Shown here one piece after another: positions 3,244-7,243 of a stretch of DNA of 48,816 bases. The notes beneath the pieces are model-generated. The model was not told the origin of the DNA. It searched no databases and was given only the letters and a program-made list of their open reading frames with translations. The translations under genes were made by a program, and so were the position numbers. The number at the start of each line of letters is the position of its first letter. Positions within the stretch are counted from its first letter, which is position 1. The DNA comes from Deltaproteobacteria bacterium (lineage in GTDB: Bacteria > Desulfobacterota > Binatia > Binatales > Binataceae). The stretch spans positions 1 to 48,816 of the forward strand of contig JAJYYI010000002.1 of assembly GCA_021801125.1 (NCBI GenBank), given 5' to 3'.

Positions 3244-3386
3244 GAAAGTCCGTGCCTTCTCTGGAGCTGAAGGCCGCAGCGCTCGACTGAGTGCATCCGC
3301 GGCGACGCTGGCTAGCAATGCGTTAACGCGGCGTCGCGGCGTTCGGAAAACCGCAAAGGCGTAAATCTAGGAGGTTGCTGGATCCC

Positions 3387-4289
3387 ATGTTTGGCTTTAT
3401 TGGATTGGGGCAAATGGGTCTGCCGATCGCGCTCAATCTGCTTGAGTCGGGCCGAGGTCCGGTGCGCGTACACAATCGGACCGCTTCAAAGGCTGCAAAA
3501 CTGATCGAAAAAGGAGCGACCCTGGCCGCGAGCCCAGCCGAGGTGGCTGCGCCTGGCGGAATCGTTTTCACCATGTTGTCCGACGATCGGGCGGTGGAGG
3601 ATGTCGTTCTCGGAGAAGATGGGATTCTTCAGCGGTTGGGCCCCGAGGGTGTTCATGTGTCGATGAGCACGATCGGGCCAGCGACCGCGCGACGGTTAGC
3701 GGAACTGCACGAGCAGCGCGCATGCGCTTACCTTGCGGCTCCGGTATTTGGCCGGCCGGACGCGGCCGCGGCCCGCAAGCTCTGGATTTGCCTTTCCGGC
3801 GCGCCTGGCGCCAAAGCCCGGGTTGAGCCGATCCTCCGCCATCTGGGCCAGGGCGTGTTCGACTTCGGCGAGGATGCGGGCGCGGCTCATGTCGCGAAGC
3901 TGGCCGGAAATTTCCTGATCGGGGCGGCGATGGAGGCTATCGCCGAGGCGGTGGTGTTGGTGGAAAAAAGCGGCGTCGACCGCGTCAAAGTGATCGACAT
4001 GTTGGCGGATACGCTGTTCAATTGCCCGGTCTACCGGAACTACGGCAAGGCTATCGCGGCCGATCGGGCCGCGCCGGTCGGATTTAAGCTCGCCCTGGGA
4101 CGTAAAGACCTGGAGTTGGTTCTGCAAGCCGCAGGCGCGGTCCAGACGCCGATGCCTTTAGCGGACCTAGTGCGCGACCGATTGCTAGCCGGCCTGGCAA
4201 AAGGGCGCGCAGAGATGGACTGGTCGATGCTGTCGCTGGGCGCCGCGGAAGACGCAGGGCTCAAGCCGGCTGCCGCGCGCCGCGAATAG
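3387..4289 (+). CDS. NAD(P)-dependent beta-hydroxyacid dehydrogenase family protein
   Basis: This protein has 300 residues. The N-terminal Rossmann domain opens with GFIGLGQMG, and NRT at the end of the second strand suggests NADP. The helical C-terminal half carries the conserved lysine in 'AKLAGNFL', the catalytic residue of 3-hydroxyisobutyrate dehydrogenase relatives. The substrate loop reads 'AAPVFGRPDAA' rather than DAPVSGG, which points to the subgroup with glyoxylate reductase-like and imine reductase-like members rather than true 3-hydroxyisobutyrate dehydrogenase. AGGAGG at 3369-3374 precedes the chosen ATG; the TTG directly after it is too close to serve. It follows the LLM gene by 143 bp. 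Confidence 0.85.
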   Translation: MFGFIGLGQMGLPIALNLLESGRGPVRVHNRTASKAAKLIEKGATLAASPAEVAAPGGIVFTMLSDDRAVEDVVLGEDGILQRLGPEGVHVSMSTIGPATARRLAELHEQRACAYLAAPVFGRPDAAAARKLWICLSGAPGAKARVEPILRHLGQGVFDFGEDAGAAHVAKLAGNFLIGAAMEAIAEAVVLVEKSGVDRVKVIDMLADTLFNCPVYRNYGKAIAADRAAPVGFKLALGRKDLELVLQAAGAVQTPMPLADLVRDRLLAGLAKGRAEMDWSMLSLGAAEDAGLKPAAARRE

Positions 4290-4482
4290 AGATCGCGCGA
4301 GGCCGCGGAGCTTCGCGCCGGGCGCAAGCGTAGAAGATTGCTGCAAAGAGCGCCGCGCGATAGGCTGCGAATAGAGCGGACTACGCAGCCTCTCGGAAAT
4401 CGAAGCCCTATCGCGCCAAGCGGGAAAGCCGCTCGAATTGGCGGGCTGGCGTTGCGTGGTCCTGTTGTGAGCTATACAGACG

Positions 4483-4935
4483 ATGCTCAAGCATGGAGAC
4501 ATAGCACCTGATTTTAGCGTCCGGACCGACAAAGGCGACGTGCTGACGCTTTCCGCCCTCCGCGGCAAGAAAGTCTTGTTGTGGTTTTACCCGAAGGCCG
4601 ACACGCCTGGTTGAGCCTTGGAAGCTCGCGGGTTCCGCGACCAGATTAGTTATTTTGAGGACCTCGACGTGGCCGTGCTCGGGATAAGCTTCGACGAGGT
4701 CGAGGATAACGCCGCGTTCAGCGCAAAATTGGACCTTCCGTTTCCTCTGCTCTGCGACACGAATCGAACGGTCGGAATGCTGTATCAGGCGTGCGACGAA
4801 GTGAAGGCGCGCTACGCGAAACGCATCAGCTACCTAATCGACGAAGAGGGGAAAATCGAGCGGGTCTATCCGCAGGTTGATCCGCGTGACCATGCGGCGC
4901 AAGTGCTCGCTGACCTGACCGACGAGCAGCAGTAA
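4483..4935 (+). CDS. Peroxiredoxin (Bcp/AhpE-like) with in-frame UGA, probable selenoprotein
   Basis: Read through the TGA at 4612-4614, this frame gives one 150-residue peroxiredoxin. The N-terminal part (MLKHGDIAPDFSV, then WFYPKADTPG at 34-43) and the part after the TGA (EARGFRDQ, VLGISFDEVEDN, FPLLCDTNRTVG) join in the same frame with no gap. The TGA falls exactly where the family has its peroxidatic cysteine (TPGCT), so residue 44 is probably selenocysteine. It would reduce hydroperoxides. There is no cysteine 5 residues later; C88 and C99 remain as possible resolving residues. A SECIS-like hairpin follows at 4626-4640. No clear ribosome site precedes the ATG. The alternative is a TGC/TGT-to-TGA mutation or sequencing error, but the hairpin and intact downstream frame argue against it. 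Confidence 0.8.
4612..4641 (+). promoter_or_regulatory. UGA codon with SECIS-like stem-loop
   Basis: The TGA at 4612-4614 is followed by a perfect 6-bp stem (4626-4631 with 4635-4640, TCGCGG/CCGCGA) closed by a GTT triloop. The first loop base (4632) lies 17 nt after the UGA. Bacterial SECIS elements lie inside the coding region just after the UGA and carry a G at the start of the loop, with GU contacted by SelB in E. coli fdhF; both features are seen here. The stem also encodes conserved residues (ARGFRD), so chance pairing in GC-rich codons cannot be excluded. Confidence 0.65.
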
Positions 4936-5027
4936 GCCCGCTCGGATTTTCGCTCGACCGTCGCAATGGATGAGAGCGGCTGGTTTTTCCGCGCCTGCAC
5001 TTTGAAGACGGAGAACAGGAAGACCGA

Positions 5028-5825
5028 ATGGCGGGTATAGCGCTGACAATCGCCGGCTCCGACTCGAGTGGTGGAGCAGGAATTCAGGCGGACCTGAAGA
5101 CCTTCTGCGCGTTCGGCGTGTACGGGGCAAGCGTAATTACCGCGTTGACCGCGCAGAACACTCAAGGCGTCAGTGGGATAGTCGAACTGCCTCCGGAATT
5201 CGTTGGCGCTCAGTACGACGCTGTCGTCAGCGATCTCGACGTCGGTGCGGCTAAAACGGGCATGCTCGCGGAATCGGCTATCATTGACGTAGTGGCGCAG
5301 AGATTGCGCGCGCACCCGCTGCCGTGGGTGATCGTTGATCCGGTGATGGTGGCCACAAGCGGTGACGTTCTGTTACATCGAGCGGCCGTCGATTCGATGC
5401 GCGCCACCATACTGCCGCTGGCATCGCTGGTGACGCCTAACATGCGAGAAGCGGAAGTTTTGACCGGCAACTCGGTCCGCAATCCCGCGCAGATGCGCGA
5501 GGCGGCGCAAGCGCTGGTCGCGATGGGCGCTCACGCGGCGCTCGTCAAAGGAGGCCATCTCGAAGGCGACGAAGCGCTGGACATTTTTTACGACGGTCGC
5601 GCGGTACGGGAGTTTCGCGCGCCGCGTGTATCCCGCGCCGCAATCCACGGGGCTGGCTGTACGCTTTCGGCCGCGATCGCTGCATGCCTGGCGCGAGGCG
5701 ACGAACTGTTCGAAGCGATCGGCGCGGCCAAGCGATTCGTCACTCGCGCGATAGAAAGCGCGCCGCCTCTCGGACATGGCGCAACACCGTTGAACCATCT
5801 GCTGCGTGAAACGCCGTCCAACTGA
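5028..5825 (+). CDS. thiD: Bifunctional hydroxymethylpyrimidine kinase/phosphomethylpyrimidine kinase
   Basis: This 265-residue ribokinase-fold enzyme phosphorylates HMP and then HMP-P to give the pyrimidine half of thiamine. The substrate motif GSDSSGGAG lies at residues 10-18. 'DPVMVATSG' lies in the middle, and the anion-hole motif 'GAGCTLSAAIA' near residue 208 includes C211. The length is normal for the family. It lies 6 nt ahead of tenA, so the two form a salvage operon. The upstream spacer of about 90 bp shows none of the conserved TPP-riboswitch boxes. The start is the ATG at 5028, after a GAAGACC-rich leader. Confidence 0.95.
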   Translation: MAGIALTIAGSDSSGGAGIQADLKTFCAFGVYGASVITALTAQNTQGVSGIVELPPEFVGAQYDAVVSDLDVGAAKTGMLAESAIIDVVAQRLRAHPLPWVIVDPVMVATSGDVLLHRAAVDSMRATILPLASLVTPNMREAEVLTGNSVRNPAQMREAAQALVAMGAHAALVKGGHLEGDEALDIFYDGRAVREFRAPRVSRAAIHGAGCTLSAAIAACLARGDELFEAIGAAKRFVTRAIESAPPLGHGATPLNHLLRETPSN

Positions 5826-5831
5826 CGCAAA

Positions 5832-6524
5832 ATGAGTGGCAATGAAGCGAGCGCCGAAGGCTTTTCGGCCCAATTGCGCACGCTGGCAGAGCCGATCTGG
5901 CAGCGTGAACTGGAACATCCGTTCGTTCGGGGTCTGGGTGACGGCACACTTGCGGTGGAGTCGTTTGCCTACTACCTCCAGCAAGATTATGTCTTTCTAA
6001 TCGAATACTGTCGCGTTTTCGCACTAGCCAGCGCGAAGGCCGCCGACCTCGGTACGATGCAAAGCTTCGCCAAGCTTCTGGGCGGCACGTTGGAAGTTGA
6101 GATGGCGCTTCATCGCGACTATTGCTCGCGTTTCGGCCTTACGCCGGAGATGCTGGAGCGGACTATCCCGTCGGCGATTACGCTGGGATATACGAACCAT
6201 CTATTAGCGGTGGCGTATGGCGGCTCGCTTGCCGATATAGTGGCAGCAATTCTTCCGTGTCAATGGGGTTACGCGGAGATCGGCTCCGTGTTGGCGCGTC
6301 AAGCAAACAGGGGCGCCGAGACGCGCTATCGCGAGTGGATCAAGATGTATTCCTCGCCGGAATTTATCGCCGGTGCCCAGGCTCTGCGCGGTCTACTCGA
6401 CCGGATGACACGTGGATGGCCGCCGAGCGCAACCGAGCCGCTCAAGCGTCACTTTCTTACCAGCAGCAGGTTTGAATACTTGTTCTGGGATATGGCGTAC
6501 ACTCGGGAATCATGGCCGTTGTAA
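5832..6524 (+). CDS. tenA: TenA family aminopyrimidine aminohydrolase/thiaminase II
   Basis: This 230-residue all-helical enzyme hydrolyses aminopyrimidines from degraded thiamine to HMP, which ThiD then phosphorylates. Active-site positions of the family are present: D52 in QQDYVFL, C143 in LPCQWGY (the nucleophile), and E215 in FEYLFWDMAY. It follows thiD by 6 nt, which makes a pyrimidine-salvage role likely. A terminator-like hairpin follows at 6553-6585. No thiE, thiC or thiM is nearby, so the rest of thiamine synthesis is elsewhere or absent. Confidence 0.93.
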   Translation: MSGNEASAEGFSAQLRTLAEPIWQRELEHPFVRGLGDGTLAVESFAYYLQQDYVFLIEYCRVFALASAKAADLGTMQSFAKLLGGTLEVEMALHRDYCSRFGLTPEMLERTIPSAITLGYTNHLLAVAYGGSLADIVAAILPCQWGYAEIGSVLARQANRGAETRYREWIKMYSSPEFIAGAQALRGLLDRMTRGWPPSATEPLKRHFLTSSRFEYLFWDMAYTRESWPL

Positions 6525-6552
6525 TAGGCGTCCCGAGAAACCCGCTGACCGA

Positions 6553-6585
6553 GCCATATTAGGCGTAGAGCAATATGGCGCTTTT
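6553..6585 (+). terminator. Rho-independent terminator candidate after tenA
   Basis: A perfect 8-bp stem GCCATATT/AATATGGC (6553-6560 with 6572-6579) with an 11-nt loop is followed by GCTTTTCCC. The stem is AT-rich and the T run is only 4, so termination may be partial. It fits the end of the thiD-tenA unit. Confidence 0.5.
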
Positions 6586-6703
6586 CCCTAGGACCAGGCA
6601 AAGTCGGGGCGTCTTAGCACAACGATCCGCGTAGAATATCTTAGCGAGGTGATCGTATCAGCGACGATCGCGTCGAAAGCTTTAGCAAGGAGCCTAACGA
6701 ACG

Positions 6704-7243
6704 ATGGAACGGGTTGAACTCAGCCGAGGATGCGAGGCGATTCAAATTCCCGCTGGACATGTTGTCACACTTCCCGAGGGTCTGGAGGTCTTTATCACCC
6801 AAGCGTTGGGCGGGTCGTTCACCGTAGAAGCGCCGGCGTACGGCGGTCTCTTCAGGATCGCCGGCAAGGATGCCGACGCGCTTGGCAAGGAGCCGCCGGC
6901 AGCACCGGAGACTTTGAGCGCGGAGAACCAGGAGCTCGACCAACTCGTGTGGGAGACCTTGAAGACCTGCTACGACCCCGAGATTCCGGTCAACATCGTG
7001 GACCTTGGCCTAATCTACGATATGAGAATCGCGCCGCAGCCAGACGGAAATAACTGGATCGAAGTGAAGATGACTCTCACTGCGCAGGGCTGCGGGATGG
7101 GGTTTTCGTTGGCTGCCGAAGCGCGCCAAAAGTTGCTTGATCTGCCCGGCGTGAGCAACGCTAACGTTGAGCTCGTTTGGGATCCGCCCTGGAATCCGCA
7201 AATGATCTCGCCCGAGGGCAGGCAGCGCCTCGGACTGGATTAG
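6704..7243 (+). CDS. sufT: Putative Fe-S cluster assembly protein SufT (MIP18/DUF59 family)
   Basis: This 179-residue protein has two parts. Residues 1-65 form the SufT-specific N-terminal segment (LSRGCEAIQIPAG). Residues 80-179 form the MIP18-like domain with 'DPEIPVNIVDLGLIY' and 'TLTAQGCGMG', whose cysteine is the conserved one of the family. SufT-type proteins help mature Fe-S proteins, notably lipoyl synthase and aconitase, so this gene links functionally to lipA in the window. AAGGAG lies 11 nt before the ATG. No sufBCDSU genes are adjacent, so it stands alone here. Confidence 0.88.
   Translation: MERVELSRGCEAIQIPAGHVVTLPEGLEVFITQALGGSFTVEAPAYGGLFRIAGKDADALGKEPPAAPETLSAENQELDQLVWETLKTCYDPEIPVNIVDLGLIYDMRIAPQPDGNNWIEVKMTLTAQGCGMGFSLAAEARQKLLDLPGVSNANVELVWDPPWNPQMISPEGRQRLGLD

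Follow-up and report, generated by a model that had tools for sequence, protein, structure and literature searches.

Locus and Predicted Product

The window, by which we mean the whole 48,816-nucleotide stretch of DNA analysed, carries a forward-strand frame that opens with an ATG at 4483, closes with a TAA at 4933-4935 and translates into 150 residues if its TGA is taken as selenocysteine (Sec). This is the only in-frame TGA, at codon 44, and the rest of the frame is open (Table 1). It occupies the site of the peroxidatic cysteine in the TPGC motif, which becomes T41-P-G-U44 in the predicted protein. A profile search matched the Pfam family AhpC-TSA (PF00578) with 107.7 bits against a cut-off of 26, and since the match covers residues 5-127, the similarity extends across the TGA. 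The first-pass annotation, which had read this frame as a full peroxiredoxin with a TGA at the catalytic cysteine, similarity on both sides and nothing but a fragment from 4618 left to gene calling, was accurate in each of these respects, the last being borne out by the ordinary list of open reading frames (ORFs), where only a 105-aa fragment starting at TTG 4618 appears. That fragment is devoid of the catalytic residue, and the genes of the 38 relatives with a TGA described below would be truncated likewise. Among the 61 candidate sites for other TGA-interrupted frames in the window, the 40 listed included none that, judged by eye, looked like another conserved family.

The protein unites TxxU at the peroxidatic position with an AhpC-TSA domain, the two marks of Sec-containing peroxiredoxins, and its placement in COG1225 rests on PF00578 together with this motif. 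The closest NCBIfam models are those of the Bcp/PrxQ kind: NF006960, a model for Bcp of the E. coli kind, was matched over nearly its full length with 114.2 bits, under its cut-off of 140. The PrxU model NF040737 scored 44.6 bits, far below its cut-off of 270, and the name PrxU used in the first-pass annotation was therefore a wrong label for a protein of the Bcp/PrxQ kind. An AlphaFold model built with 45 aligned sequences (pLDDT 96.7) found its best PDB matches among Bcp, AhpE and PrxQ entries, namely Bcp in the ACKA-BCP model (9a4d), BcpB and AhpE of Mycobacterium tuberculosis, Bcp1 and Bcp4 of Sulfolobus, a Burkholderia enzyme and Xanthomonas PrxQ. Purifying selection acts on both sides of the TGA, as judged from dN/dS values against a same-genus relative (G001) of 0.055 for the 43 codons before it and 0.187 for the 100 codons after it; 32 of the 43 upstream residues are identical in that relative.

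In a comparison of the 30 loci of the family that exceed 2 kb in length, with up to 1.5 kb on each side, the dehydrogenase-like gene and thiD adjoin the homologue only in the window, G001 and a second close relative, G015, while tenA lies nearby only in the window and G001. Downstream of the peroxiredoxin gene, positions 5028-7243 hold thiD and tenA, both of thiamine salvage, and then a sufT-like gene. No functional link between these neighbours and the peroxiredoxin is evident.

Table 1. Coordinates of the features discussed, in the window unless a homologous locus is named.
Feature	Position	Strand	Remarks
3-Hydroxyisobutyrate/2-hydroxy-3-oxopropionate dehydrogenase-like gene	3375..4289	+	Below NCBIfam cut-offs, Pfam domains above theirs; no part in the Sec mechanism
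Predicted Bcp/PrxQ-type selenoperoxiredoxin gene	4483..4935	+	150 aa with Sec44; domain, profile, homologue and fold evidence
UGA codon, predicted Sec at the peroxidatic position (TPG-U)	4612..4614	+	TGA or TGC/TGT in 70/70 genes read
SECIS-like hairpin	4626..4640	+	6-bp stem 4626-4631/4635-4640; fits the bSECIS model in PMC13188914
Apical loop GUU	4632..4634	+	G at loop position 1, then U; the G is supplied by a GGG Gly codon
thiD (HMP/HMP-P kinase)	5028..5825	+	Over NCBIfam cut-off
tenA (thiaminase II)	5832..6524	+	Over NCBIfam cut-off
Third-type hairpins	L065:663-707, L071:675-719, L075:654-698, L081:832-876, L082:661-705		In Sec homologues
L051/L060 sister regions	L051:1630-1674, L060:826-870		TGT vs TGA, shared SECIS hairpin bases

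Selenocysteine Machinery and the Conserved TGA

The host genome (G000; 3.5 Mb in 150 contigs, 96% complete, 4.2% estimated contamination) encodes the machinery expected of a genome with a bacterial selenoprotein gene, and the search for selA, selB, selD and a tRNA-Sec gene that the first-pass annotation had recommended returned all four. The selB gene scored 381.9 bits against a cut-off of 242, and selD, adjacent to it on contig C30, scored 381.8 bits, also over its cut-off. The selA gene is present as two complementary pieces at the ends of two contigs, covering profile positions 1-241 and 240-444, the first of them over the cut-off, and the tRNA-Sec has the anticodon TCA. The selD gene (L095, G000:C30:35331-36257) is interrupted by an in-frame TGA within the motif AAGUAGKLG, which makes SelD of this genome a predicted selenoprotein as well. 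The same genome contains six more peroxiredoxin-like matches, each with Cys at the position in question.

Homologues were searched in 116 genomes, the host included, and 69 loci were read, which with the window gene make 70 rows. These comprise all matches down to an E-value of 1.9e-41 and ten sampled from the weaker matches listed. Five of these ten were chosen for a flagged TGA; three of the five proved to be Sec genes, and in L086 and L087 the codon is one for Cys. Three distant Cys paralogues from the host genome (L002-L004) were left out of the counts and kept in the tree, and L005-L007 were left out of the counts as well. A separate pattern scan, whose pattern ended in TPGC and could thus return Cys genes only, gave at least 592 stretches, of which the best 80 were kept.

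With the window gene counted, the codon at the site is TGA in 39 of the 70 rows and TGC or TGT in the other 31, so that an in-frame UGA is aligned with Cys throughout; the figure of 31 refers to the Cys rows read and not to all Cys relatives in the 116 genomes. The TGA rows come from 39 genomes in eight family groups, 17 of them in the window's own family group, and the other 38 TGA genomes encode proteins with 44-74% identity to that of the window. Close relatives with TGC or TGT had been named in the first-pass annotation as evidence that would speak against selenocysteine; the nearest relatives, G001 and G015, have the same TGA. SelB scored over its cut-off in 94 of the 116 genomes, a set to which every one of the 39 TGA genomes belongs (hypergeometric 3.7e-5, uncorrected for relatedness). 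By a comparison made by eye, 28 of the 31 Cys rows also come from SelB-bearing genomes.

A SECIS-Like Hairpin Downstream of the UGA

As described in the first-pass annotation, a 6-bp stem (UCGCGG/CCGCGA) with a GUU loop begins 11 nt after the UGA and places its loop 17 nt from it, a geometry close to that of E. coli fdhF. An Rfam search of positions 4400-5100 gave no match at E ≤ 5. The bSECIS model, in the passages of a 2026 review that define it (PMC13188914), has a loop of 3-9 nt, a stem of 4-16 bp, a distance of 16-37 nt from the UGA, a minimum free energy (MFE) of -7.5 or lower, and a G within the first two loop positions, often as G followed by G or U. The window hairpin agrees with this model on every point, with a 3-nt loop that starts with G, a 6-bp stem, 17 nt of distance and an MFE of -10.7 over a 36-nt stretch.

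For counting hairpins among the rows, we used a rule of at least 5 bp of stem and a loop 14-25 nt away, limits that were set after the rows had been seen, and synonymous recodings of the same peptides served as the null. When the window peptide was recoded, 23% of the sequences had a hairpin fitting the rule and about 0.6% had one as good as that observed (p about 0.006). Folding energy did not separate the window hairpin from its synonymous recodings (p = 0.20), since GC-rich codons for the peptide ARGFRD tend to pair. Over all rows, the MFE fell below recodings at p < 0.05 in 10 of 39 Sec rows and in none of the 31 Cys rows; this test is too weak alone, and the SECIS rule of published form with the recoding null was therefore used instead. 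By that rule, a hairpin follows the codon in 36 of 39 TGA genes (13.4 expected) vs 4 of 31 Cys genes (6.3 expected), and the lack of stem conservation that the first-pass annotation had considered as a counter-argument was not what we found. The three Sec rows without a hairpin by the 5-bp rule (L061, L072 and L083) each keep four contiguous pairs in the window register.

The cells of the stem are paired in 84.1% of cases in Sec rows vs 59.7% in Cys rows, with 26-51% in controls in which the partner strand was slid. Covariation in the main stem is modest, with two of eight pairs changed on both sides vs two and three in the slid controls (at -2 and +3, respectively), and this weakness in a fixed register is partly due to the use of other hairpins by some Sec rows. 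In another family group, three Sec genes (L085, L088 and L089) form a 6-bp stem that differs in sequence, lies one base closer to the UGA and carries a GUA loop, and five further Sec genes (L065, L071, L075, L081 and L082) use a hairpin of a third type, whose 7-nt loop, CGUGAUC or CGGGAUC, is 21 nt from the UGA. By manual comparison, L065 departs from the other four members of this third type at two stem pairs, on both sides, with G-C and C-G where the others have A-U and U-A, and these changes look as if they were compensated.

The loop G falls on the third position of a Gly codon, and that codon is GGG in 32 of the 37 Sec rows with Gly there vs 2 of 17 such Cys rows, in which GGC is the commonest choice (11/17). 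Elsewhere in the Sec-row genes, GGG accounts for 46 of 382 Gly codons. In tree-aware pairs, the association of GGG with Sec was not significant (2.7 pairs the same way and 1.0 the opposite way, median p 0.6).

Reading of the UGA Codon

The sequence itself and comparison among genomes establish the gene, the machinery, the conserved TGA, the hairpin and the predicted fold, and we infer, with a probability of about 0.94, that the window gene is an active selenoprotein gene in which UGA 44 specifies Sec within a full-length peroxiredoxin of Bcp/PrxQ fold. A ribosome translating the message would reach the UGA at codon 44, where SelB carrying Sec-tRNA-Sec would recognise the hairpin 11 nt downstream, through the G and U of its apical loop, and insert Sec. 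The 150-residue product would then use Sec44 to attack peroxide, forming a selenenic acid, which may be reduced by an outside thiol, either thioredoxin or a low-molecular-weight thiol as in AhpE; alternatively, one of the protein's own cysteines, C91 or C104, could resolve it. The first-pass annotation had arrived at the same Sec reading, and the machinery, the conserved TGA and the distribution of the hairpin between TGA and Cys genes all speak for it.

Other explanations of the TGA were weighed and rejected in view of its conservation, the selection on its flanks, the machinery and the Cys homologues. The codon is one base away from TGC or TGT and the assembly is fragmented into 150 contigs, both of which would suit an error of sequencing or assembly, or a pseudogene created by a nonsense mutation not long ago; however, an accident of either kind would hardly recur as the same TGA in the 38 further genomes, whose proteins are 44-74% identical to that of the window and which all have SelB, nor would it leave purifying selection on both flanks, and we regard such an origin as very improbable. 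Equally little credence is due to a UGA that is read as Trp or another residue through a change of the code, or passed at a leaky stop with no Sec. Unspecific read-through is conceivable in principle, but Cys stands at the site in all 31 non-TGA rows, which fits Sec and not Trp, the genome has tRNA-Sec and the rest of the Sec machinery, and TGA acts as an ordinary stop in several homologous genes of the set, such as L027.

The remaining candidate is the 105-aa ORF from TTG 4618, with the TGA as a genuine stop. It is the entry that the ORF list provides, but its product would be deprived of the peroxidatic residue and, in the predicted fold, of the strands at 12-15, 20-22 and 30-35. The 43 codons upstream of the TGA are conserved, as their identity to G001 (32/43) and their dN/dS of 0.055 indicate; a functional product of this kind is highly unlikely.

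Resolving Cysteine

In Bcp proteins with an alpha2 resolving Cys, this residue lies at +5 from the peroxidatic one. The window protein has Arg49 at this position, and the first-pass annotation was right that the second cysteine is missing; the lack is no peculiarity of the lineage, as had been supposed there, but is common to all 39 Sec rows and 24 of the 31 Cys rows. Cys at +5 thus occurs in 0 of 39 Sec rows vs 7 of 31 Cys rows (Fisher 0.002). On the tree, where six supported independent pairs were available, the relation of +5 Cys to Sec was not significant (0.9 pairs opposite on average, none the same way). Within one genus group, three genomes, G004 (L030/L056), G018 (L055/L028) and G028 (L057/L032), each hold a Sec copy without Cys at +5 alongside a Cys copy with it.

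We considered whether the SECIS stem forbids Cys at +5 and rejected this idea, because a TGC codon still pairs there by U-G wobble, as worked out by hand, and the Cys row L076 has five contiguous pairs in the same register. With the usual +5 Cys missing, reduction would fall to an outside thiol or to another Cys of the protein. C104, part of the motif YGAC/YQAC, is shared by 32 of the 39 Sec rows and 22 of the 31 Cys rows; for C91, the corresponding counts are 28 of 39 and 13 of 31. We favour an outside thiol for the resolving step, with C104 as the internal candidate.

Direction of Change Between Sec and Cys

A tree of 73 rows, including L002-L004, was built with the Sec/Cys site masked; its bootstrap search remained unsettled, and the long branches of L003 and L004 meet in it. 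The Sec/Cys label requires 15 changes on this tree, at least six of which are forced by well-supported branches. A two-rate model gave 1.17 for Sec-to-Cys vs 0.23 for Cys-to-Sec, with a log-likelihood of -35.3 vs -38.1 for equal rates. At the ancestors of four mixed pairs, Sec received 0.89-0.99, rising to 1.0 with another outgroup and standing at 0.91-0.99 when five distant rows were removed.

The best single case is the pair L051 (TGT, genome G029) and L060 (TGA, genome G020), which belong to one genus group, are identical at 372 of 444 bases and share the same hairpin bases. The pair is likely to represent a recent Sec-to-Cys change that left the SECIS element behind. SelB is present in G029, an assembly with 88% completeness and 8% contamination.

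Read at face value, these data would make Sec ancestral in the clade's 1-Cys-like Bcp peroxiredoxin and repeatedly replaced by Cys, mostly in genomes that kept SelB. However, the rows were picked by similarity to a Sec protein, and such sampling favours a Sec-ancestral result; for this reason, and with the root uncertain, we give the Sec-ancestral reading about even odds. The trend on the present tree also runs opposite to a 2006 survey, whose Table 1 counts no Sec-to-Cys and five Cys-to-Sec events for peroxiredoxins (PMC1794560). If Sec is indeed ancestral, the replacement of selenium by sulfur may accompany a changed regeneration of the enzyme, as some Cys genes have the +5 Cys and no Sec gene read does. 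Within single family groups, and even within one genus group, the enzyme exists in matched Sec and Cys forms, often in SelB-bearing genomes; this allows a direct test, by comparing one form with the other and taking the +5 Cys into account, of the old question why Sec is retained or given up.

Comparison with Known Systems

Sec in COG1225 peroxiredoxins with a TxxU motif has been described in the literature from 2005 at the latest. As far as the relevant parts of these sources go, 43 such Sec-peroxiredoxin sequences were reported from the Sargasso Sea (PMC1088965) and 253 Sec peroxiredoxins from the GOS data (PMC2398784), TxxU Sec peroxiredoxins appear in two reviews (PMC9312934, PMC13188914), and peroxiredoxin selenoproteins are listed for named Deltaproteobacteria and Clostridia (PMC1794560). 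The kind is hence already known, and we regard the window gene as a well-supported addition to the Sec-peroxiredoxin family. It shares with the published members, going by the descriptions in those parts, the TPG-U motif, the PF00578 domain, a SECIS element directly downstream and common Cys homologues, and no point tested sets it apart. In the same parts of the published accounts, we found no discussion of the absence of the +5 Cys. A literature search confined to sources outside most subscription journals returned no title on a bacterial Sec-Bcp without the +5 Cys or on a Sec-to-Cys pair of peroxiredoxins.

The window protein shares with the Bcp/PrxQ thiol peroxidases of NF006960 its predicted fold (9a4d_B, 5epf, 3drn, 5iiz) and a nearly full-length profile match, and it differs from them in a score below the cut-off, in Sec for Cys and in the missing +5 Cys. 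In a comparison by eye with L004, a Cys paralogue in the same genome, the segment leading up to the conserved Arg114 is shorter in the window protein.

In the PrxU of Eubacterium acidaminophilum, Sec is the peroxidatic residue. This enzyme, cited in PMC9312934, resembles the window protein in being a Sec-containing peroxiredoxin; the window protein belongs to a different subfamily, as its score with NF040737 (44.6 vs 270 bits) indicates.

AhpE of M. tuberculosis works by 1-Cys enzyme chemistry. The predicted fold of the window protein matches its structures 4x0x and 1xxu with TM scores of 0.85-0.89, and the window protein, like this 1-Cys enzyme, has no Cys at +5; it differs from AhpE in having Sec in place of Cys and in possessing Cys 91 and Cys 104, which are common to most Sec rows.
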